A stretch of DNA of 64,000 nt from Odiellus spinosus (lineage: Eukaryota; Arthropoda; Arachnida; Opiliones; Phalangiidae): the NCBI GenBank assembly GCA_963920705.1, contig OY987236.1, positions 13,282,886 through 13,346,885 on the forward strand, read 5' to 3'. Numbering within the stretch: the stretch's first letter is position 1; every line of letters begins with the position of its first letter. The position numbers were made by a program, and so were the translations under genes. Shown here piece by piece: positions 2,497-52,969 of this stretch. The notes beneath the pieces were generated by a model. That model ran no database searches and had not been told where the DNA came from. It saw nothing but the letters and a program-made list of their open reading frames with translations.

Positions 2497-3199
2497 CTAC
2501 ATGGTAAGAAATTTAAATCTTTGTCTGGCTGGAGACATTACGGGCTGCGACATCAACCACTTCCGGAAATTAATTAAAATCCCGCCTATCGTGACTAGTA
2601 TCGCGCCGGAAATGCTATAAGCGTCCGCGCGTTCGCCAAAAAATAATATTTGCCAGAAGAACGCCAGTACAATGTCCGAGCCTGATCTAACTATTGAGAT
2701 TGGTCCGGCTTGCTCCAATTGCAAGGCTTTAGTTAGGAACATTTGACCGAGAATACTAAGTACTCCCAAGGATACCAAGACTAGCGCTTCGTGGTTGCAG
2801 CTAACGCGATACGCGAAACCCTCGACGATGGCGGTGATAATGGCGGTGAAGATAGCGGACATCCAACCCAAGTACAAGATGATGATGGTGTGGTGAACGT
2901 CCTTGATCTTCCGGATGAAGATGTAGCAAAAAGAGTTGAAAAAGACCGAGGCTAAACCGTACAAGGTGCCGGCTAATCTCGTCGGGTCACTCAAATCGGC
3001 CACGTTGTCACCCGAAATTAACATGGCCGGTAACTTGACTACCAATAACAGACCAAGCATGGTTAATAGCAAGGAGACTATGGTGACGGAGCTGCATTTC
3101 TCCTTCAAGAATATACGAGCGAAGATGGCGACGAAGACTGGACTGCTGAAGATAATGACGTTCGCCTCGGCCAACGGTAGGGTCTGGACGCAATAGTAT
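2497..3199 (-). CDS. SLC35G1: SLC35G1-like transporter, last exon
   Basis: C-terminal two-thirds of a drug/metabolite-superfamily (EamA-type) membrane transporter of the SLC35G group. SLC35G1 family members are ten-helix proteins of about 340-370 residues; their substrate is not settled. On the minus strand a pyrimidine-bearing acceptor (CACTACAG) ends at 3200 and the exon begins at 3199, completing an Arg codon begun in the previous exon. It then reads YYCVQTLPLAEANVIIFSSP, followed by a LKEK segment after a helix; LAEANVIIFSSPVF and ALQLEQAGPISIV are strongly family-like. About seven hydrophobic helices follow, and the frame stops at 2497-2499. Together with the exon at 6325-6697 this gives 345 residues if translation starts at 6659, the usual family length. 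I see no frame disruption, so it looks intact. Family recognition is from memory, not a search. Confidence 0.88.
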
Positions 3200-4131
3200 C
3201 TGTAGTGATAAAGAACTTGCCGTTAGTGATAACTATATAATATTTAAATTACGTAAGAAGTGGATTAAAAGGATCACGTGATATGGCCTCATAACGTTTT
3301 AAAATGATTATTTTCATCAACGACAGAAGGGGTTAAGTTCAATTTTGCCAGTGGGATATGCGCTAGAGAAGATGACGGCAACCTTCTCATGAAATGCTGT
3401 AGTTCCAACATGACGCTAAATTTTAATAACTACGTGTTTTATACGAATTCAATATAAAAATGGAATTTTGACGTTCGTGTTAACATCCTTTAAATACCAT
3501 GATCAATATTAGGACCATTGAAAGCCTTTCTCCGAAGGATCTCGATTAGGGTGAAGCCCAATTCCTTTCACTCCACGTACTACGCGGCTTCAAAAACTAG
3601 CCATTGCTAGCTCCTTATACCCACCCAGAACATATTCCTCGATTTCTGGCTAGGCTTTAATTTTATGAAGAAATGGGCATTCCTAGTGCATCATTTTTAA
3701 TCAAGTATTTGTCATGAGCAACTTCTTGGAAATAATTTACTTTATTGATGTTTTGAAACAGAAAAATATCATAATTGAAAGTCTTGAAACTTAATTCTCT
3801 CCAATACTTAAAATTTGGGTTATAAATTTTTCTATCACTTATTACTTTCCATTCATTAAAAACTTGGCAGGCTCTTGGTATCGCAGTTTGGATCATTATC
3901 AGTTAATTTCCACCTTTTTCCTCTACGCTTAATGTTTAGCTCCTGAAGGTTTATATTGACATTGTTTTAAATTCAGTTCACTGACATAAGGGGAGTATAT
4001 ATATAAAGATAAGAGTAAGTACGTCATTAAACTTATCTATTTCTATATATACACTGTCTTTCTCTCAATTAACCTGATTCCTTGAAACGATTATCTATTA
4101 ACTATAAGGAACGTTAATAGTTTCCCTTTAA

Positions 4132-6270: not shown

Positions 6271-6324
6271 ACTACCAAAGGCTTTGGACCATATTACAAT
6301 AGATTTTTAAAATTTATATCTCAC

Positions 6325-6697
6325 CTGAAAAAAATACTGCCGGACTCGAAAACACCTCTCGCGACGAAAAGCCAAAAAAACGTCTTATTCCAAATTTTTT
6401 CTCGCTCGTATATGACTAAAGGTAGTATGAAAATGGTTATGGCGAGGAACCGAAAGAAAGATAACTCGCCGGGATGAATTTCGGTCAAGAATTTAACGGT
6501 GACTGACGTCAAGGAGAGAAGTAGGCCGGACATGAACGCGAAAAACAATCCTTTGAAGAGATTGATGTTCCTCCTGAGAAAGGATTCAACTTTGGGACTA
6601 GGTCTTCCCACATCCTTCACTCTTAAATCGTCCAACTCTTCGAGTTCCTGTTCCTGCATTCGTTCGAATACTCGGAAATTCTCAAAATCGTCGAAAT
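6325..6697 (-). CDS. SLC35G1: SLC35G1-like transporter, first recognised coding exon
   Basis: N-terminal part of the transporter. The likely start is the Met at 6659-6657 (MQEQELEELDDLR), an acidic cytosolic tail followed by helix 1 (LFKGLFFAFMSGLLLSLTS), helix 2 (FFRFLAITIFILPLVIYE) and the start of helix 3 (FWLFVARGVFESGSIFF). The exon ends at 6325 with AG joined to A of the next exon to make Arg; the donor is GTGAGA. Upstream of the Met the frame stays open for 12 acidic codons to a TAG acceptor-like site at 6700-6698, preceded by a long T tract, so the exon may begin at 6697 with another exon further upstream; an in-frame TAA lies at 6704-6702. I did not find such an upstream exon. With the Met at 6659 the protein is 345 residues. 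Confidence 0.85.
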
Positions 6698-7463
6698 CTA
6701 CTTATAAAAAAATAAAAAAATATCCGCTTTGTTTACTTTATCTCAGTTTTCTCGCGATGATCGATTATTTTAATTAAAACCCGAGACGGTTCGATACCAT
6801 GCCGACAACTAAGCCTAATCCTAAATGCGCGGAGAAAATTTAAGAGGAAATTCTACACGCGCGGTTTATCGTTAGATAAGAACCAGCAGCCTCAAGGCTC
6901 AACTTAAAAAAAAAATAAAAAAAATTGGATGTTCTAAAGGCGATAGAAACAGGTTTCGTTTGAATATAATGTCCACGTGGTACGATTTCCTCGAAAACTT
7001 TATTCTTAGACGAATTCACCTTAAGTTTTCAGCGACTGTTTTTTTGGTTTTAAGAGAATTAATACAAACGTATTCGAACGACGTACTGAAATTGTAACCC
7101 AATTCAATTCGAGAACTTTGAAAATAACTTTCAATTCTAGATTTCTGAACGTGCAAAGCATACAGGAATCGTTATATATCTTAATATAATACTTATAGAT
7201 TGAGAGTAAAACTAGCTTTCTTTCTGATGCAAATTCCCGCTGAATTTCATAAAAATCCAGGTGCTAAATCGAAGCAGGTGTGTTAAATTTTATTTAACCT
7301 TGATTTGACAGTACGCGCGAAGGAGACCTCCCTATAGATGCTAGTAAACATCATTACAGTAACGGGGAAACTGGGTTTGTACGCGCTAACAATTTAAGGT
7401 GAATTTTTCCGTGATATCACACGCTCCATTCCATTTTAAATCTACTTTCATCCTATATACAGA

Positions 7464-20036: not shown

Positions 20037-20400
20037 GATTAGTCTTTTTGGGAGATATTTTAGAGATTAGTCTTATTGGAAGATTTTAGAGATTAGTCTT
20101 ATTTGAAGATATTTTAGAGACTAGTCTTATTTGAAGATATTTTAGAGACTAGTCTTATTTGAAGATATTTTAGAGACTAGTCTTATTGCGAGATATTTTA
20201 GGGATTAGTCTTATTGAGAGATATTTTAGGGATTAGTCTTATTGGGATGTATTTTAGAGATTAGTATTATTGGGATGTATTTTAGAGATTAGTCATTTGG
20301 CGATATTTTAGAGATTAGTCTCATTGGGCGATACTTTAGAGATTAGTTTAATCGGGCGATACTTTAGAGATTAGTCGTATTGGGAGTTATTTTGAGATTT
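20037..20400. repeat. About 29-bp tandem repeat, 12 or so copies
   Basis: Repeats of GATTAGTCTTATTGGGAGAT plus ATTTTAGA, with ACTAG, GGGATGTAT and GGGCGATAC variants grouped in adjacent units. Confidence 0.9.
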
Positions 20401-32489: not shown

Positions 32490-34700
32490 GTTCTAAAAAT
32501 AATAATCGTATAGTTCTGAAAATAATAATCTCACTTCTAAAAGTAATCTCACTTCTAAAAGTAATCTCACTTCTAAAAGTAATCTCACTTCTAAAAGTAA
32601 TCTCACTTCTAAAAGTAATCTCACTTCTAAAAGTAATCTCACTTTTAAAAGTAATGTCACTTTTAAAAGTAATGTCACTTCTAAAAGTAATCTCACTTCT
32701 AAAAGTAATCTCACTTCTAAAAGTAATCTCACTTCTAAAAGTAATCTCACTTCTAAAAGTAATCTCACTTCTAAAAGTAATCTCACTTCTAAAAGTAATC
32801 TCACTTCTAAAAGTAATCTCACTTCTAAAAGTAATCTCACTTCTAAAAGTAATCTCACTTCTAAAAGTAATCTCACTTCTAAAAGTAATCTCACTTCTAA
32901 AAGTAATCTCACTTCTAAAAGTAATCTCACTTCTAAAAGTAATCTCACTTCTAAAAGTAATCTCACTTCTAAAAGTAATCTCACTTCTAAAAGTAATCTC
33001 ACTTCTAAAAGTAATCTCACTTCTAAAAGTAATCTCACTTCTAAAAGTAATCTCACTTCTAAAAGTAATCTCACTTCTAAAAGTAATCTCACTTCTAAAA
33101 ATAATCTCACTTCTAAAAGTAATCTCACTTCTAAAAGTAATCTCACTTCTAAAAGTAATCTCACTTCTAAAAGTAATCTCACTTCTAAAAGTAATCGCAC
33201 TTCTAAAAGTAATCTCACTTCTAAAAGTAATCTCACTTCTAAAAGTAATCTCACTTCTAAAAGTAATCTCACTTCTAAAAGTAATCTCACTTCTAAAAGT
33301 AATCTCACTTCTAAAAGTAATCTCACTTCTAAAAGTAATCTCACTTCTAAAAGTAATCTCACTTCTAAAAGTAATCTCACTTCTAAAAGTAATCTCACTT
33401 CTAAAAGTAATCTCACTTCTAAAAGTAATCTCACTTCTAAAAATAATCTCACTTCTAAAAGTAATCTCACTTCTAAAAGTAATCTCACTTCTAAAAGTAA
33501 TCTCACTTCTAAAAGTAATCTCACTTCTAAAAGTAATCGCACTTCTAAAAGTAATCTCACTTCTAAAAGTAATCTCACTTCTAAAAGTAATCTCACTTCT
33601 AAAAGTAATCTCACTTCTAAAAGTAATCTCACTTCTAAAAGTAATCTCACTTCTAAAAGTAATCTCACTTCTAAAAGTAATCTCACTTCTAAAAGTAATC
33701 TCACTTCTAAAAGTAATCTCACTTCTAAAAGTAATCTCACTTCTAAAAGTAATCTCACTTCTAAAAGTAATCTCACTTCTAAAAGTAATCGCACTTCTAA
33801 AAGTAATCGCACTTCTAAAAGTAATCTCACTTCTAAAAGTAATCTCACTTCTAAAAGTAATCTCACTTCTAAAAGTAATCTCACTTCTAAAAGTAATCTC
33901 ACTTCTAAAAGTAATCTCACTTCTAAAAGTAATCTCACTTCTAAAAGTAATCTCACTTCTAAAAGTAATCTCACTTCTAAAAGTAATCTCACTTCTAAAA
34001 GTAATCTCACTTCTAAAAGTAATCTCACTTCTAAAAATAATCTCACTTCTAAAAGTAATCTCACTTCTAAAAGTAATCTCACTTCTAAAAGTAATCTCAC
34101 TTCTAAAAGTAATCTCACTTCTAAAAGTAATCGCACTTCTAAAAGTAATCTCACTTCTAAAAGTAATCTCACTTCTAAAAGTAATCTCACTTCTAAAAGT
34201 AATCTCACTTCTAAAAGTAATCTCACTTCTAAAAGTAATCTCACTTCTAAAAGTAATCTCACTTCTAAAAGTAATCTCACTTCTAAAAGTAATCTCACTT
34301 CTAAAAGTAATCTCACTTCTAAAAGTAATCTCACTTCTAAAAGTAATCGCACTTCTAAAAGTAATCTCACTTCTAAAAGTAATCTCACTTCTAAAAGTAA
34401 TCTCACTTCTAAAAGTAATCTCACTTCTAAAAGTAATCTCACTTCTAAAAGTAATCTCACTTCTAAAAGTAATCTCACTTCTAAAAGTAATCTCACTTCT
34501 AAAAGTAATCTCACTTCTAAAAGTAATCTCACTTCTAAAAGTAATCGCACTTCTAAAAGTAATCTCACTTCTAAAAGTAATCGCACTTCTAAAAGTAATC
34601 TCACTTCTAAAAGTAATCTCACTTCTAAAAGTAATCTCACTTCTAAAAGTAATCTCACTTCTAAAAGTAATCTCACTTTTAAAAGTAATAATCGCCCTTA
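32490..34700. repeat. 18-bp minisatellite, about 120 copies
   Basis: Unit AATCTCACTTCTAAAAGT. The period is constant from about 32530 to 34676. Because 18 is a multiple of three and the unit lacks stops in two frames, it yields frames of 689 codons (plus) and 727 codons (minus) made of LLKVIS and LLEVRL repeats. These are by-products: uniform hexapeptides on both strands with no start context or splice evidence. Rare variants (AAAATAATC, AATCGCAC) recur at fixed spacings, showing duplication of multi-unit blocks. Both edges decay gradually. Confidence 0.97.
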
Positions 34701-40659: not shown

Positions 40660-43302
40660 ATGGACGAGCTTCTCAGCTTAAAAGCTAAAAGAACTGGTAT
40701 CAAACAATCTGCCACCCGGGCAAAGAACAACTTGGAAACGGAGATGACAAAACCGAATCCCGACTACGCAGCCATCGAAGGGTACGTGACCGTACTTCAG
40801 AGGAAAGAGATCTTGCTGATAGAACTCGACACAAAGATGGAGACCCTTTTCACAACGGAAAAGGAGCTGGAGAAAGATCAACAAACTTCACAAGATTACG
40901 TTGACGACCTCGTCATTTCCCAATCTCGTGGGAAACGAGCCGTCGAACTAGCCAACCAAGCCGCATCGCTAGCGGCAGCAGCAAGCCTCGCACTCGCAGC
41001 ATCCTCGTCCACTACAGCCTCGCAGAGTACTAGCGGTACATCCACGCCAAATTCAACGCCATCCGGGAGCGGGATCTCAAACCCGACCGGGAACGCGACG
41101 CAGAATACAACGGCAGCCGCAGTAGCTTCGCAGAACTCTACGCAATCCGGGAGCGGGAGCTCAAACCCGACCGGGCACGCAACGCAGAATTCAGCCGCAG
41201 CTGGAAATCAGTCCTCTCCGCCAAATAGTCTCGCACCGGCCGTGAGACTACCCAAGCTGGAAATCCGTCGCTTTACGGGAAAAATCAGCGAGTGGCAGAA
41301 CTTTTGGGCGCATTTCAATAGCGCAATTCATCTAAACCCGCACCTAAACAAAACCGACAAGTACAGCTATCTACTCTCGTATTTGGACGGGTCAGCCTTG
41401 AAATCAATCGAAGGTCTATCACTATCTGACGCTAATTATGATACCGCAATCACTACGCTAAACACACGGTTTGGGCGCAAAGAAATCATCATAAGCGAGC
41501 ACATGAACAATCTACTCAGTCTTCCCGCCGTGAAGAAATCGAGCGACGTTTTCGGCCTAAGAAAACTACACGATTCCTGTATGACGCAAATCCGAAGCCT
41601 AGAAGATTTGAAAGTCATTGACCAGAACTATGGGAGCCTACTTTGTCCCATCATCACGCAACGCCTTCCTGAAGATATCACGCTAGCCTTCAGTCGAGAA
41701 TTCGCCGCAGTCGAACAATTAAAAATCGCAGATTTGATGACATTTCTTCAAAAAGAAATCGCAAGCAGAGAACGGGCCTCCGCCTTAACTCGAGCTACCG
41801 AGTCAGAACGCAAACCCGCCGAACCGGAACGCCGACCACCGGAGAGATTTTCACTATCACGGGATTCAAGCAACGATCATCAAAGATCCAGACCACCTTT
41901 CGGAGCCGCAGCACTTACCGTAAACGACGAAAATAGATCCTGTCTATACTGCGAGAAAAACGAACACACTACCACGCAATGTAACCAGCTAACAGTTACC
42001 GAGAAGAAAGCCCTGCTAACCAGAAAGAAACGCTGTTTCATCTGTCTGAGAGAGCACCATCAAGCCCGAGATTGCACTTCTAAATTTCGCAATTGCAGAA
42101 GATGTAACAACCGCCATCACTCAAGTATTTGCGATCAAATGGACACAGCCGCGCCCGACAACTCATCTAGCGGAGTAGCTCAAATGGCCGCCGGAGTCCA
42201 AAAGAACAATAAGGGAGCCGTATTCCTGCAAACCGCATTAGCTCTAGCGCAACGACCCATGGGAGTCAAACAGAAACCGGTCCGATGCCTACTTGACAAC
42301 GGGAGTCACGCAACCTTCATCAAGGAGAGCGTATCCAGAGAACTTGGGCTACAAATTCTATGCGAAGAATACTTGGAAACCACTAGTTTCGGAAGCACGA
42401 GGCCTGAACGAGCACTAAGAAGAAAAGTCCGCTTGGATCTTAGAAGTCGCCATAATCCCGAGGACACCGTCGTCATCGAAGCATACGAAACGCCCGAAAT
42501 ATGCGGTTCCGTATTTTCCATACCCGGAGCCGAACTCGCTAGCGAATTTAGCAATCGAAACCTCCTGATGGCAGACGCAACCATGACCGAAATAGGAAGA
42601 CGAGATCCCCACGCAATCGACATACTCATTGGCGCTGATTACCTTTGGGCCGTTACGAGTGGAAAAAGCGAGCGTTTCACTCCTACTCTGACCGCATTGG
42701 AAACCATCTTTGGTTGGACTCTTCAAGGTCCCGCCACCGTCGCATCACGTAAAGTAGGCGTAAACGCAATCGCCACTTTACATATTCATGGACCTCGCGA
42801 AGAAGAAATTCCCTCCCGTCAACTACGCATGCACGATCCCGACCGAGACGCAGAATCCGACAACGAAATCATGGAGAAATCCGGGCAAACTCCCTCATTC
42901 CAAGATGGCCGCTACACAGTTGCACTACCGTTTAAACCTGGCAACCGCAATTTGGGAGATAACTACGCAGCAGCCGCCAGACATACGTCAAATCTCTTCA
43001 AACCTCACAAGCATCCCGCCACCTTCAAGGAAAAACGCCCTCCGAAAGATCCTTGGACGCGCCAAACTATCTTTCGAAGGAATCTTAACGACATTAGAAG
43101 AAACCGTAGCCGAAATCAATTGCCGCCCAATCACTTTCGTTTTCGAGGATGCCAACGAGCCAGCGCCGGTCACGCCAAATCACTTTCTCATCGGAGACCG
43201 GATGACCAGCCTACCATCGTGAGAGACATCTACCCCGCACAAAAAAACCGGCAAAGCCGCACTACAAGACCGATACAGCTCCTCTACAATTTAGAACTTT
43301 AA
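40660..43302 (+). CDS. Gag-protease open frame of the BEL/Pao element
   Basis: A long open frame starting MDELLSLKAKRTGIKQSAT. Residues 1-80 are charged and helical. About 95-195 is an Ala/Ser/Thr/Gly-rich linker. About 195-365 is the Gag core typical of BEL/Pao (FTGKISEWQNFW, then LLSYLDGSALKSIEGL). Residues 428-441 and 459-472 are CX2CX4HX4C zinc knuckles, with a third Cys/His cluster at about 478-490. About 543-700 is a retropepsin-like region with LLDNGSHATF at its active site, the Pao peptidase type. GC content is well above the neighbouring DNA. The coding part reflects a retroelement, not a host gene. Confidence 0.9.
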   Translation: MDELLSLKAKRTGIKQSATRAKNNLETEMTKPNPDYAAIEGYVTVLQRKEILLIELDTKMETLFTTEKELEKDQQTSQDYVDDLVISQSRGKRAVELANQAASLAAAASLALAASSSTTASQSTSGTSTPNSTPSGSGISNPTGNATQNTTAAAVASQNSTQSGSGSSNPTGHATQNSAAAGNQSSPPNSLAPAVRLPKLEIRRFTGKISEWQNFWAHFNSAIHLNPHLNKTDKYSYLLSYLDGSALKSIEGLSLSDANYDTAITTLNTRFGRKEIIISEHMNNLLSLPAVKKSSDVFGLRKLHDSCMTQIRSLEDLKVIDQNYGSLLCPIITQRLPEDITLAFSREFAAVEQLKIADLMTFLQKEIASRERASALTRATESERKPAEPERRPPERFSLSRDSSNDHQRSRPPFGAAALTVNDENRSCLYCEKNEHTTTQCNQLTVTEKKALLTRKKRCFICLREHHQARDCTSKFRNCRRCNNRHHSSICDQMDTAAPDNSSSGVAQMAAGVQKNNKGAVFLQTALALAQRPMGVKQKPVRCLLDNGSHATFIKESVSRELGLQILCEEYLETTSFGSTRPERALRRKVRLDLRSRHNPEDTVVIEAYETPEICGSVFSIPGAELASEFSNRNLLMADATMTEIGRRDPHAIDILIGADYLWAVTSGKSERFTPTLTALETIFGWTLQGPATVASRKVGVNAIATLHIHGPREEEIPSRQLRMHDPDRDAESDNEIMEKSGQTPSFQDGRYTVALPFKPGNRNLGDNYAAAARHTSNLFKPHKHPATFKEKRPPKDPWTRQTIFRRNLNDIRRNRSRNQLPPNHFRFRGCQRASAGHAKSLSHRRPDDQPTIVRDIYPAQKNRQSRTTRPIQLLYNLEL

Positions 43303-46419: not shown

Positions 46420-46921
46420 ATGGATGTCTTTAAAATGGAGGATTGCGGGGTTATGACCCCACCCGTAAGTTCAACCGTCGGTACGGCCGAAGCCCCCAAA
46501 ATGACCGAATTGACTTTTGACCCCAATGTACCGGAGTTTATAACTTTTTACGACCCTTCTTTAATTAAAAAGGAAAGTTACGAGGAGAAAACGTATTTCG
46601 ATCCCATGAATGAAAATTCTTACGGTGGTCCCAAGGAATTTACTAACTTACCTCCCTATCCCGGGACCGATCGTTCCGTCGTTAGTCCCAACTCGTCCGT
46701 CCATACATCGACCGGTTATGCCCCTTTAACCCCTGGTAGTTTGTCCCCTTGTAGTCCGGTAACCACGGTCTCGTCTAACGGAACTTTATCGAGTCCTCCG
46801 CGGTCTATGCAAGGTGGTCCCTCCATGATGGGTCATTTCGAAAAACTGGGACCACCTTTGCCCGAAAGTACCGTCGGTATGCACATTATTAAAGGATCAC
46901 CGCAACTCAAAAAGCCTAATG
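46420..46921 (+). CDS. First coding exon of an unidentified transcription-factor-like gene
   Basis: The exon starts with an ATG (MDVFKMEDCGVMTPPVSSTV) and ends after 167 codons plus one base at a consensus donor, G/GTAAGG. Beyond the donor the frame runs on through intron-like sequence to a stop at 47059. The protein is acidic at the start (FDPNVPEFITFYDPSLIKKE, including IKKE, a sumoylation-type motif), then Pro/Ser/Thr/Gly-rich (residues about 80-150, with SPNSSVHTSTGYAPLTPG), and ends GSPQLKKPNG. Such N-terminal regions are typical of activation domains in nuclear receptors and other DNA-binding factors, but I cannot name the family; no zinc finger or other DNA-binding domain is in this exon. 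The clustered nuclear-receptor sites 3.2-4.6 kb downstream would fit hormone regulation. Codon use and GC differ sharply from the flanking DNA, which supports real coding. Confidence 0.72.
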
Positions 46922-47139
46922 GTAAGGAGTTTTATTGTTTTATACATTTTTCAAGCGAGTTCGGTGTCTCATTTCGACCCTTGAACCAAGTAAACGATGA
47001 CTGCGTATGTTGCTATAGCTGCTTAGCCATGAAACCTTGTCTCTTCAGTACAAGATGTTGAAGTTATATAACATTGAATTAAAATAGTAATTAATCATAG
47101 AAACTTCCGTAAAATTAGTACACCGACTGTACGAGATTA

Positions 47140-47250: not shown

Positions 47251-48351
47251 GCATGAGGATTAATTGTACATAATATTGGTGTTTTTTATTTAAATGGGGG
47301 TTGTGTAAAAATAATTAATTGCCGTACTCTAATTTTAATTTAGTTATTGACCTTAGTTTTAATAATTGTAAGACCTCAATCTGCTAAAAGTATAATAACC
47401 CTATAGATATACCGTTTAGTACTGTACAAAAAATTCAGTAAGATATTTTATGCTGTGGCTGTTCGAACAATTTCTTTTAAAAGCTAATGATATTGCATAA
47501 TATAGTCTTTTAAATTCTTAACCGGTAAGATTATACATTTTGAGCCACCCACTGGGCCGTTGACGCGCGTTTTGTGCCTCACCGTGAAGCTACCCATCAA
47601 GGTATATCGGAGGTCATTACACTTAGGGACGGTTTTTAAAATTTTTAACTTCATAATTTTTTTACGATAAATTAAAAAGATTTTAGGTGATTTTTATTTG
47701 ATTAAGTTGAATTTATTATTTTAATGACAAGGATACGCGTCAAAAAAAAAATTATAATTTTAAATTAGGTAAGTTTTTTTTTTTTTTTTATTTGGTGTTT
47801 GATTGGTTTATTTCGTGGTGTTAATATTACGTAATTAGTTAGTTTTTATTGAATATTCGTTTTGAGAGTGATTTGAAGGTTTTTGTGGTGATTTTGATAC
47901 GAAATTTTAGCGAAATTGCTACGTTTCTCGTGTTGATGATCGGAGGTCATTTACCTAGGTATCTCGGAAGTGTCTTTGCTCTTTTAGCCTACTCCTTAGC
48001 TACGACTCGCTTCGTGGGGTCTTCGGCTTTCTTATACGTTAAAATCTTAGCATTTTTATAAAGGCGATGTAGATATTTGAATTACTTGTTTTTGGTATTT
48101 GAATTTTTTGGTGGATTATTTTTTGTTTAAATTTGTTTTAATATTATATTTAAAGGATATGGGTATTGAAATTTAAATATTTTATTACCTGTATTATGAC
48201 GGTACTAATACTTAAATTTAGTATTATCTTTTAAATTTATAGAAATACGAATTTATAATTCAAATTATTATTTGGTGCTTATGAATGTTATTTATAGAAG
48301 TCGCACACACTTTGTTAGGCATTTTATTGCACAATTTTATAATGTTTCGGG

Positions 48352-49385
48352 GTGAATCAAATTTTTTATTAATTAAACTATGAATTTTAAAATACATTAA
48401 TTTAACTATGGAATTTAGAATGTATTAATTAAACTATGAATTTTAGAATACATAGATTAATTAAACTATGAATTTTAGAATACATTAATTAATTAAACTA
48501 TGAATTTTAGAATACATAGATTAATTAAACTATGAATTTTAGAATACATTAATTAATTAAACTATGAATTTTAAAATACATTAATTAAACTATGCGTTTT
48601 TAGAAAAATTAATTAAACTGAAATTTAGAAAACATTAATCTATTAATTTTAGAATACATTAATTAATCTGAATTTTAGAATACATTAATTAATTAAACTG
48701 GATTTTTGAATAGATTAATTAATTAAACTGCATTTTAGAATAGATTAATTAATTAAACTGCATTTTATAATACATTAATTGATTAAACTGGATTTTAGAA
48801 TACATTAATTAAACTGCATTTTATAATACATTAATTGATTAAACTGGATTTTAGAATACATTAATTAAACTGGATTTTAGAATACATTAATTAAACTGGA
48901 TTTTAGAATACATTAATTAAACTGGATTTTAGAATACATTAATTAAACTGGATTTTAGAATACATTAATTAAACTGGATTTTAGAATACATTAATTAAAC
49001 TGGATTTTAGAATACATTAATTAAACTGGATTTTAGAATACATTAATTAAACTGGATTTTAGAATACATTAATTAAACTATGAAATTTAGAATACATTAA
49101 TTAAACTATGAATTTTAAATACATTAATTAAACTATGAAATTTAGAATACCTTAATTAAACTATGAAATTTAGAATACCTTAATTAAACTATGAAATTTA
49201 GACTACCTTAATTAAACTATGAAATTTAGAATACCTTAATTAAACTATGAAATTTAGAATACCTTAATTAAACTATGAAATTTAGAATACATTAATTAAA
49301 CTATGAAATTTAGAATACATTAATTAAACTATGAAATTTAGAATTCATTAATTAAACCATGAAATTTAGAATACATTAATCATAC
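48352..49385. repeat. 26-bp minisatellite, about 40 copies
   Basis: Unit AATTAAACTGGATTTTAGAA plus TACATT. The outer units read AAACTATGAATTTT or AAACTATGAAATTT, while the central 48.8-49.07 kb units are uniform AAACTGGATTTT, showing that homogenisation is strongest in the middle. Confidence 0.95.
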
Positions 49386-49736
49386 TTTAAAGCTTCAAAC
49401 GAAATTAAAATACACCGTTTTCTGAAAAATAGATATATATATTAGACAAATCAATTGATCAGCACCAATTTTATTCCAAATTGATATAAAATTCCTATTC
49501 TCCGGCTACTTAACTTAAAACGCGATATACCTCGAGCATAACTTACTTTAAAAAAGCATTGTGAAATTGATTTTTTTTTTATTCAAAATATTTTAAAAAC
49601 GGTTGGTGACTCAAGTCTGCTGGAATGTTTCCCCTTTTATATTGTTAATGTCATTTTTTTACACTGGCTATACTTTTTAATGTGAGGAGGAGAGGAGAGC
49701 GGGAAAACAGGCTGCTCTGTGCGCTGTAACCATCCA

Positions 49737-49766
49737 GAGAGAGAGAGAGAGGGAGAGAGATAGAGA
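49737..49766. repeat. GA-rich microsatellite
   Basis: A run of GAGA repeats with single interruptions. It marks the end of a slightly GC-richer patch at 49.68-49.85 kb with no coding frame. Confidence 0.8.
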
Positions 49767-50125
49767 AATCCACGTGGTGTTTGGCGGGAAAGCCCTACCA
49801 CTCGCGCGAATAACCTCGTGGAGATTCTACAGGTGGTTGAACTTTTCGAGCTGGTAAAACTAAAAAAAAAATGACAACACTACGTTCGGTTGATTCTACG
49901 CGCATTCGCGAACCCAACTAAGTTTTTAAAAACTTTCACGTTTCCACGTTCTTTCAGGGAAAGGAAACCTTGAAATTTTGAAGGTTAAAGAAATTAAGCT
50001 ATTTTTTAATTTTACCGGTAATTATTTAAATTATTATTAGGTTAATCAATTTTTTATTTTATTATTATTTACTTTACTATTAGAATTAATTTGGTTAGTT
50101 TTAATTTAATTAAATTAATTGGTAA

Positions 50126-51504
50126 AGGTTAATGACCTTCGATTGATTTTTATGATAATTTCGATATTGGAAAATAAATTTCGATTTTGGTGGATTTTTA
50201 TGGTTTTTAAATTAATTTTTGCATTTTTTAATGCATTGGGTTAATGACCTTTTAGTATAGTTAAGTTTTGATAGTTAAAAGTTGCTTAATTGATTAATTT
50301 ACGATGATTTAGTAGGTCAATGATATTTCTAGATTTAAATTAAAATTTTATTTTATTAAGTTTTAATTTGTAGATTTCTAAATGTTGGTCTATATCCACT
50401 TGGTCAATGACCCTGGTAGTTTAAAACCAGAAATTTTATATCAGGTTTTAATTTAATTACTAGTTTATGTAATTAATTACTAGTTTATGTAATTAATTAT
50501 TAGTTTATGTAATTAAATTAAAAAAATATAATCATATTTTTAAAATTTCTTATTTTTGATGTTTCTCGAATTTTGCTCTATGTTCATTATTACAAATATT
50601 TAATTAGTTTCTCACAAAATTTAAAGTTTTAATTGGTTCTTGACCATTTAGTTTAAAAATTGTTTTATTAAATTATAGAAAAGTTATGAAATAGCAAAAT
50701 TTATCTCATTAGGTCAATCAAAGGTCAATGACCACAAAATCATTAATGTTTTAAAATATTTAAAATTTTTCTTGAATGAAGTATTTATTACTGTAGAAAA
50801 AAACAGTTTCATTCAATTGGTAAACTGTAGGTCATTAACCTGTGGTGTAAAATATATTAATCAAAGCGCAAACCAAAATTAAAAAACTAATCAATTTAAA
50901 ATTAGTTAAAATAACCGAAATAAATTCATTTCAATCAAATATAAAAATATATATATATAAAATAAAAATGAACTCAATAGGTCAAGCAGAGGTCAATGAC
51001 CCCGCCACCTAATAATCATTAAATTAAAAACTAACCATAAATTAGTAAAAATATAGCATTTTAATCAATTTTATCACCAAATTTCTAGATTTTTAACCAA
51101 AAATCAAAATTGACTCAATAGGTCAATCATAGGTCAATGACCCCACATTATAATATTCATAAATCAAGAAAAAATCATAAGTTATTCAATTAATGCAAAT
51201 TAATTGTTTTTATTTATAAAAATAAAATCACTCTATAGGTCAAACATAGGTCAGTGACCCCATACAATCAAAATCAAAGAATAACCATAAAAATGCCAAA
51301 AAATAAAGAAAAATTAAATCAATTTTATCGAAAATTTTAAAAAATATATCAAAATACCAAAAATAACTCAATAGGTCAATCAAAGGTCAATGACCCTTTA
51401 AAAAATTAAACTTTCAAATTAAATTAATAACTCTCATAAAATCGCGAAGTATCTACCCAAAAATTAGATTTCAAATTAAATCTAAATTATAAGGTCATTG
51501 ACCT
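50126..51504. promoter_or_regulatory. Cluster of nuclear-receptor IR1 sites (ecdysone-response-element type)
   Basis: Inverted AGGTCA half-sites with 1-bp spacing start at 50126, 50238, 50314, 50401, 50722, 50829, 50990, 51131, 51248, 51384 and 51492. The last is perfect (AGGTCATTGACCT). Those at 50990, 51131, 51248 and 51384 read AGGTCA-N-TGACCC; 50722 ends TGACCA. The first three and 50829 have one or more mismatches. Five (50722, 50990, 51131, 51248, 51384) have another AGGTCA exactly 11 bp upstream, making a direct repeat with 5-bp spacing fused to the inverted repeat. IR1 of this consensus is the classic EcR/USP site, and DR5 is bound by RXR-type dimers. The rest is very AT-rich. It lies in the putative intron of a regulator-like gene, so an enhancer is a reasonable inference, but occupancy is unproven. 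Confidence 0.7.
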
Positions 51505-51759
51505 TTTAATCAAAAATTAGTCGTAACTAAATTCTTATATAAACCTTGACTATAATCATTAAAATAAAAAATATATATATTTAAAAAATCTGTTAAAATA
51601 ACTAATTTTTCCTTAATTCATCAATTAAATCAACCAATTAAATAACCGAAGGAATTTTGACTTCGGTATTTATCAAACTTGTCCCAGCGTGCAAGCAATG
51701 GTAGCCATGAAACTCGAATACAGTCGAAAAAGCTCCTTACTATTTTGTTTTCTATTTAA

Positions 51760-51796
51760 TTTAACATTGCGTATCCATCCACCGTAGCGTAACGCT
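51760..51796 (+). repeat. Dispersed motif G, copy 4
   Basis: TTTAACATTGCGTATCCATC then CACCGTAGCG, the most diverged copy. Confidence 0.5.
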
Positions 51797-52969
51797 TTAA
51801 GCTTTTATTGGAATGGAACTAAGAGAGGAGAAATATAGGCGGAATTTGGGTGATTGAACTTTCGCTTAGCGGGCGCGGAAGCATCTCCTGTTAGTGTGTC
51901 TTCGCTGTCTAGCTGGTGGCATTGACTTATTTTGGCACAATTTCCGATTTGTTGCCATCTTTTGCTTTCATTGAACCCTCGCGCGTGCGCGCTCATTCGT
52001 TCGATAAGCCTAACTTTAGGGATGTTTAATTTAACGTTTAATGATTTAAACACCAGTTCCTGAACCGTTTTTGCCGCTTCCTATGCACATATTGTTAATA
52101 ATTATTATTATAATCTTATTACTCATTCGATAGATGAATCGCGTGATTGATTTGAATTGAATGGAATTATATAATAGTTGATTGAACAATATTTTTAGCT
52201 TGGTTTTTATACACTCTTAAGATATGTATTTATTTATACATATCCTTAACGTGTAATTTTGCTTAATGGTGTAAGATTACGTAAATTGTAGATAGGCAAA
52301 ATAATTGTTGTTAATAAGCGTTGAACTGAGAATTATTTGCTTGGCTTTATATTTTAGGATCAATCATTTTACGATTTTTTAGAATTATTGGGACGTTATG
52401 GATATCTCAAGTTTTTTATTTTGGAATTAAAATTTTATTTGATTAATTTAAAATTAATTTCAATAGGATAGTTTTTTTTAGAAAATATCGTAAGTTATTG
52501 TTATTTTGATGTCCATACACTTATTTTAACTTCTGAATATTTACTTAGAAACTAATCTAAAATTTTACTTTGAAAAATGTTTTTTTATTAATTTACTTAG
52601 AGACTAATCTGAAATTTTAATTTCTAATTTACATTGATCAAAAAACTTTCTCGCTGCAACACTATAGAAACACGTTGCATTTTTTTTTTTTTTTTCTGGT
52701 TTCACCCTGAATATTTGAGGAATTCGGCCAATATCCAATATTTTAGATAATTATAAAACAAATAATTTTTAACAAACACAAAATCAGATTCAAAAATTAA
52801 ATTAAAATTCAAATCTTCGACGGTTCAAACATAGCGAAATATATTCAAATTTAAGACATTCACAAAAGTAGGCGTCTTATTCCCACAAGGATAAAAAAAT
52901 AAGCAGTAACACCCATCAAACTTAATTACAGGCATAGTGAGTGACTAATTCCCATTCGGGTTGTAACGC

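Follow-up and report, generated by a model that had tools for sequence, protein, structure and literature searches.

We found that an AT-rich block within the 64-kb stretch of DNA analyzed here (the window) carries eleven inverted AGGTCA-type repeats with a one-base spacer (IR1) at positions 50126-51504, five of them embedded in a conserved 31-bp composite core. On balance, the array is probably a homotypic cis-regulatory cluster of nuclear-receptor-type sites, for which the ecdysone receptor heterodimer EcR/USP would be the likeliest reader. The coordinates of the individual elements are given in Table 1.

Table 1. Elements of the IR1 array and the upstream open frame (positions in the window).
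Feature	Position	Strand	Remarks
IR1 site AGGTTAATGACCT, 1 mismatch	50126-50138	.	adjoined by a weak inverted remnant of the composite core
IR1 site GGGTTAATGACCT, 2 mismatches	50238-50250	.	motif scan
IR1 site AGGTCAATGATAT, 2 mismatches	50314-50326	.	motif scan
IR1 site TGGTCAATGACCC, 2 mismatches	50401-50413	.	motif scan
Composite 31-bp core	50705-50735	+	half-site 50711-50716, DR5, IR1 50722-50734
Degenerate composite core	50812-50842	+	IR1 AGGTCATTAACCT (1 mismatch) at 50829-50841
Composite 31-bp core	50973-51003	+	half-site 50979-50984, DR5, IR1 50990-51002
Composite 31-bp core	51114-51144	+	half-site 51120-51125, DR5, IR1 51131-51143
Composite 31-bp core	51231-51261	+	half-site 51237-51242, DR5, IR1 51248-51260
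Composite 31-bp core	51367-51397	+	half-site 51373-51378, DR5, IR1 51384-51396
Perfect IR1 AGGTCATTGACCT	51492-51504	.	motif scan; without upstream half-site
Diverged tandem repeat tract (self-matches)	50670-51396	+	IR1 start-to-start distances 107-161 bp
Open frame, candidate first coding exon upstream	46420-46921	+	GT donor 46922-46923 by eye

The IR1 sites were collected with the motif AGGTCANTGACCT, that is AGGTCA-N-TGACCT, allowing at most two mismatches over the 12 specified bases. Seventeen matches occur in the window, of which 11 belong to the array (scan of 50000-51650); the remaining 62,349 bases contribute six, somewhat more than shuffled sequence does (mean 1.4, maximum 3 in 10 shuffles). 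One of the eleven array sites is perfect, seven deviate at one base and three at two. Dinucleotide shuffling of the array region yielded a mean of 0.007 sites and a maximum of one in 300 shuffles, as opposed to the 11 observed. The classical degenerate consensus of ecdysone response elements (EcREs) is RGKTCANTGAMCY. Exact matches to it number five in the window, each of them inside the array, versus 0.06 expected, and none of 100 shuffles reached five; with one mismatch allowed, 10 of 19 matches in the window fell within the array (1.08 expected). The first-pass annotation had proposed eleven near-AGGTCA-N-TGACCT sites within 1.4 kb of AT-rich DNA, argued that such palindromes should be rare by chance, and suggested scoring them against shuffled sequence. 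All eleven sites were indeed present with at most two mismatches each, their rarity was borne out by the shuffles, and the array scored far above chance with both motifs.

All eleven sites consist of two AGGTCA-like half-sites in inverted orientation separated by 1 bp, and the half-site pairing is specific for this spacer. Inverted pairs with at most two mismatches numbered 11 at spacer 1 versus seven at all other spacings from 0 to 15 combined, and five of those seven involve the outer half-sites of the composite cores. By eye, the remainders by 10.5 of the ten distances between IR1 sites revealed no helical phasing. Outside the array, just one further site of the window, AGGTCATTTACCT at 47944-47956, deviates from AGGTCANTGACCT at a single base; it lies between the open frame at 46420 and the array.

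The composite core, with the majority form CTCAATAGGTCAATCATAGGTCAATGACCCC, is common to five units and places a further AGGTCA 11 bp upstream in direct orientation (DR5), followed by the IR1. This upstream half-site, which had escaped the first-pass annotation, was found at the five units and at 50829 when at most two mismatches were allowed over both half-sites. The core also contains a conserved CTC that the half-sites do not explain. The element at 50829 is perhaps a sixth member of the tandem repeat: its upstream part ranks in the top 0.5% of the 17-mers of the region, but its whole-core score of 16.2 lies inside the range of best scores from 20 random 64-kb sequences (9.9-18.4). After the five training sites, it was the next-best core in the 64-kb window, followed by scores of 12.8 and less, and no composite remnant was found beside the sites at 50238, 50314, 50401, and 51492. 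We also considered inverted composite units in the left half of the array and rejected them; the site at 50126 alone is suggestive, as its minus-strand upstream part ranks in the top 2.7% of the 17-mers of the region. An exact scan of viral and prokaryotic genome collections with the degenerate core gave no match, as expected for an animal sequence.

The composite units are tandem copies of one unit, as judged from the residual homology across 50670-51396, which matched itself with 67% identity over 406 columns at an offset of one unit and with 73% over 224 columns at two units, the cores being included in both comparisons. No array at this position appeared in the output of Tandem Repeats Finder. 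Since five of the sites were copied from one tandem unit, the eleven do not represent independent events. The cluster seen in the first pass is thus real as a set of sites, but five of its members are copies of a single diverged repeat; even without these five, six IR1 sites remain against the shuffle mean of 0.007.

The cores and the spacers of the five units differ in how well they have been kept. The mean pairwise identity of the five cores is 0.887 (minimum 0.806). The aligned spacers reach 0.547, compared with shuffled spacers that averaged 0.495 and did not exceed 0.543 in 30 runs, which indicates that the homology left in the spacers is slight. Invariant columns make up 24 of 31 in the core versus 13 of 66 in the gapless spacer (Fisher p 7e-8); the test treats columns as independent, which they are not, and the core served as the anchor of the alignment. 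Columns with a G or C consensus were invariant in 12 of 14 cases in the core and in none of eight in the spacers. A single spacer pair out of 21, that of the units at 50990 and 51248, beat all of its 200 shuffles and is the sole pair with clearly homologous flanks; here, 27 of 31 core positions were identical versus 64 of 99 spacer positions (p 0.023).

The best-conserved quarter of the array was not equaled in any of 1000 permutations. None of five control tandem arrays of the window contained an exceptional conserved block (366 to 993 of 1000 permutations were as good), although these controls, hand-picked from the 41 rows that Tandem Repeats Finder listed for the window, match the array weakly, having short units (28-41 bp) and a better overall conservation (0.90-0.96 versus 0.78). 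The control array at 20037 was unusual by its range of conservation (12 of 1000). Conservation in the IR1 array is not spread over the whole unit as in a satellite; the block sits in the core. Among the tandem units of this one sequence, the sites are therefore kept better than the DNA between them, a contrast to which copying of cores from unit to unit may have contributed. Preserved cores amid decayed spacers are what would be expected of protein-binding sites, and with its five 31-base cores retained in this manner, the array looks like a real regulatory element.

The main rival to this interpretation is a decaying local satellite or minisatellite, in which the palindromic core persists by chance or by short-tract copying without any receptor function. 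The right half of the array is a diverged tandem repeat and the window is rich in tandem arrays, both in keeping with such an origin. However, it is the cores that were kept rather than whole units, above all at their G and C positions, and the five chosen control arrays lack a comparable block. Moreover, five IR1 sites (50126, 50238, 50314, 50401, and 51492) lie outside clear composite units, and no second copy of the array exists within the 64-kb window. We thus regard the satellite as somewhat unlikely. It is somewhat less plausible that the array serves a DNA-binding protein other than EcR/USP, be it an RXR/USP dimer, SVP, HR38, HR3, or E75 on half-sites, or a non-receptor protein occupying the whole 31-bp core. 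Such a factor would account for the conservation extending past the IR1 as far as the CTC and the upstream half-site, and two units (at 50720 and 51382) contain AAAGGTCA, the site of HR38-type receptors. Yet in six of the eleven sites, namely the five just listed and partly also 50829, the IR1 persists although the upstream part has no good counterpart, which suggests that what the sites share is the IR1 itself.

The strand composition of the region bears on another origin. Near 50.8 kb, the composition of 50000-51650 flips: the left part is T-rich and has more G than C, and the right part is A-rich and has more C than G. In addition, the ends of the AT-rich block (50001-50076 and 51560-51638) match each other weakly in inverted orientation (66% over 79 columns). 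Both features would suit a fold-back element or non-autonomous transposon whose two halves carry repeated transposase-binding motifs. However, the inverted homology was not significant: with the motifs masked, 23 of 200 shuffles were as good as the two halves under a scoring that is too permissive for AT-rich DNA, and under two other scoring schemes, 66 and 19 of 200 shuffles equaled the unmasked halves and 81 and 42 of 200 equaled the block ends. The terminal inverted repeats of such a transposon thus found no significant support at the block ends, which makes a mobile element very improbable, and inverted homology does not explain the composition flip. Even more remote is a function of the palindromes as small RNA hairpins. 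Together with its flanks, the perfect palindrome at 51492 did fold more favorably than most of its shuffled versions (z -3.2; one of 200 did as well), but three composite cores folded no better than expected (z -1.0, -0.6, and -0.9), and the search of the 64-kb window against Rfam returned no family at the gathering score. A tRNA scan of the window found none, and a scan for bacterial promoters and terminators remained at chance level, being uninformative for an animal sequence.

The AT-rich block that the array fills has a G+C content of 0.207 over 49990-51650 and is flanked by G+C-richer blocks at 49650-49960 (0.453) and 51680-52060 (0.423). The left one contains five GAGAG matches and one CACGTG, and the right one contains one GAGAG and two GCCAT. 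These flanking blocks might belong to a single regulatory module or serve as alternative promoters.

With the GT donor located by eye at 46922, the array would sit 3.2-4.6 kb into an intron of the open frame at 46420. The frame is possibly a transcription-factor-like first exon, as the first-pass annotation had assumed in suggesting autoregulation. Searches of the frame against Pfam (E 1) and PDB (E 10) gave no match, so that the transcription-factor-like reading and autoregulation are no more than possibilities. Among 20 downstream plus-strand frames compared with Pfam, there were two matches (E 0.21 and 0.17), both below the curated cut-offs. Between the frame and the IR1 array lies a 28-bp tandem array of about 36 copies (48368-49380), and farther upstream an 18-bp repeat of about 120 copies with 98% match (32526-34689). 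The gag-like open frame at 40660-43302 matched DUF1759 (Pfam, E 1.8e-35), a part of the BEL/Pao retroelements of animals, and gave a weak aspartyl-protease match; it is likely a BEL/Pao-type retroelement and points to an animal as the source of the DNA. On the minus strand, 2497-3222 and 6321-6701 matched the EamA transporter family (E 3.4e-18 and 1e-5) and are presumably exons of one SLC35-like gene.

How could a receptor-site cluster of this kind have arisen and functioned? A receptor dimer would occupy each IR1, most likely EcR with an RXR-type partner (EcR/USP), on the assumption that the source animal possesses EcR, and in the composite units a further receptor might sit on the upstream half-site at a distance of 11 bp, or about one turn of the helix. 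Local tandem duplication would have multiplied a unit of roughly 110-160 bp, after which the spacers would decay toward AT-rich random sequence while selection retained the 31-bp cores and the single IR1 sites. The many adjacent sites could then confer a steep response to the hormone level at a nearby promoter, perhaps that of the frame at 46420. In a bolder version, which we consider rather unlikely, the 31-bp core would be a new composite response element, in which three half-sites, a DR5 fused to an IR1, together with the flanking CTC would let a dimer and a third receptor cooperate as one unit, and the enhancer grown by tandem duplication would act as an unusually sharp hormone switch of its target gene. 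If the cluster is real, the history of an enhancer could be read in one sequence from its duplicated units, decayed spacers, and kept cores. It would also provide a natural setting in which to examine how a hormone response depends on receptor-site number and on a third half-site, and the neighboring gene would become a candidate direct hormone target.

The assignment to EcR/USP agrees in part with the literature. The canonical EcR/USP element is AGGTCA/TGACCT according to the accessible text of PMC4777130, which supports the earlier proposal that the array is read by this heterodimer. In yeast, as reported in PMC5494300, Drosophila EcR-USP activated strongly via ER6, IR0, IR4, DR1, DR4, and DR5, with IR0 performing best, and the accessible text of that paper does not name IR1 among the human-type elements assayed. 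As far as their accessible portions go, the EcR regions and EcREs in PMC8411571, PMC5501803, and PMC8435907 include no cluster of such kind. A search of titles in the open-licence literature found no tandem EcRE array either, which is weak evidence of novelty. The IR1 strings AGGTCAATGACC, AGGTCANTGACC, GGTCAATGACC, and AGGTCATTGACC appeared in the context of FXR in six of 11 papers listed, none of which had an insect in its title. Because the same IR1 string is an FXR site in vertebrate papers, insofar as their text was accessible, the motif by itself does not identify the receptor.

Among known systems, the closest is the EcRE of the IR1 type, to whose consensus five sites of the array correspond exactly. 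Half-site, orientation, and palindrome are likewise those of the canonical element, as described in the accessible part of PMC4777130. The array differs in comprising many sites, five of which have the DR5 upstream half-site and the conserved CTC. The IR-1 element of vertebrate FXR/RXR shares the identical IR1 string in the accessible literature and illustrates that the motif is non-diagnostic for a receptor; nothing suggests a vertebrate origin of the window itself. Homotypic enhancer clusters resemble the array in assembling many copies of one site, here within about 1.4 kb, whereas the array described here has partly grown by tandem duplication, with its decayed spacers still visible.
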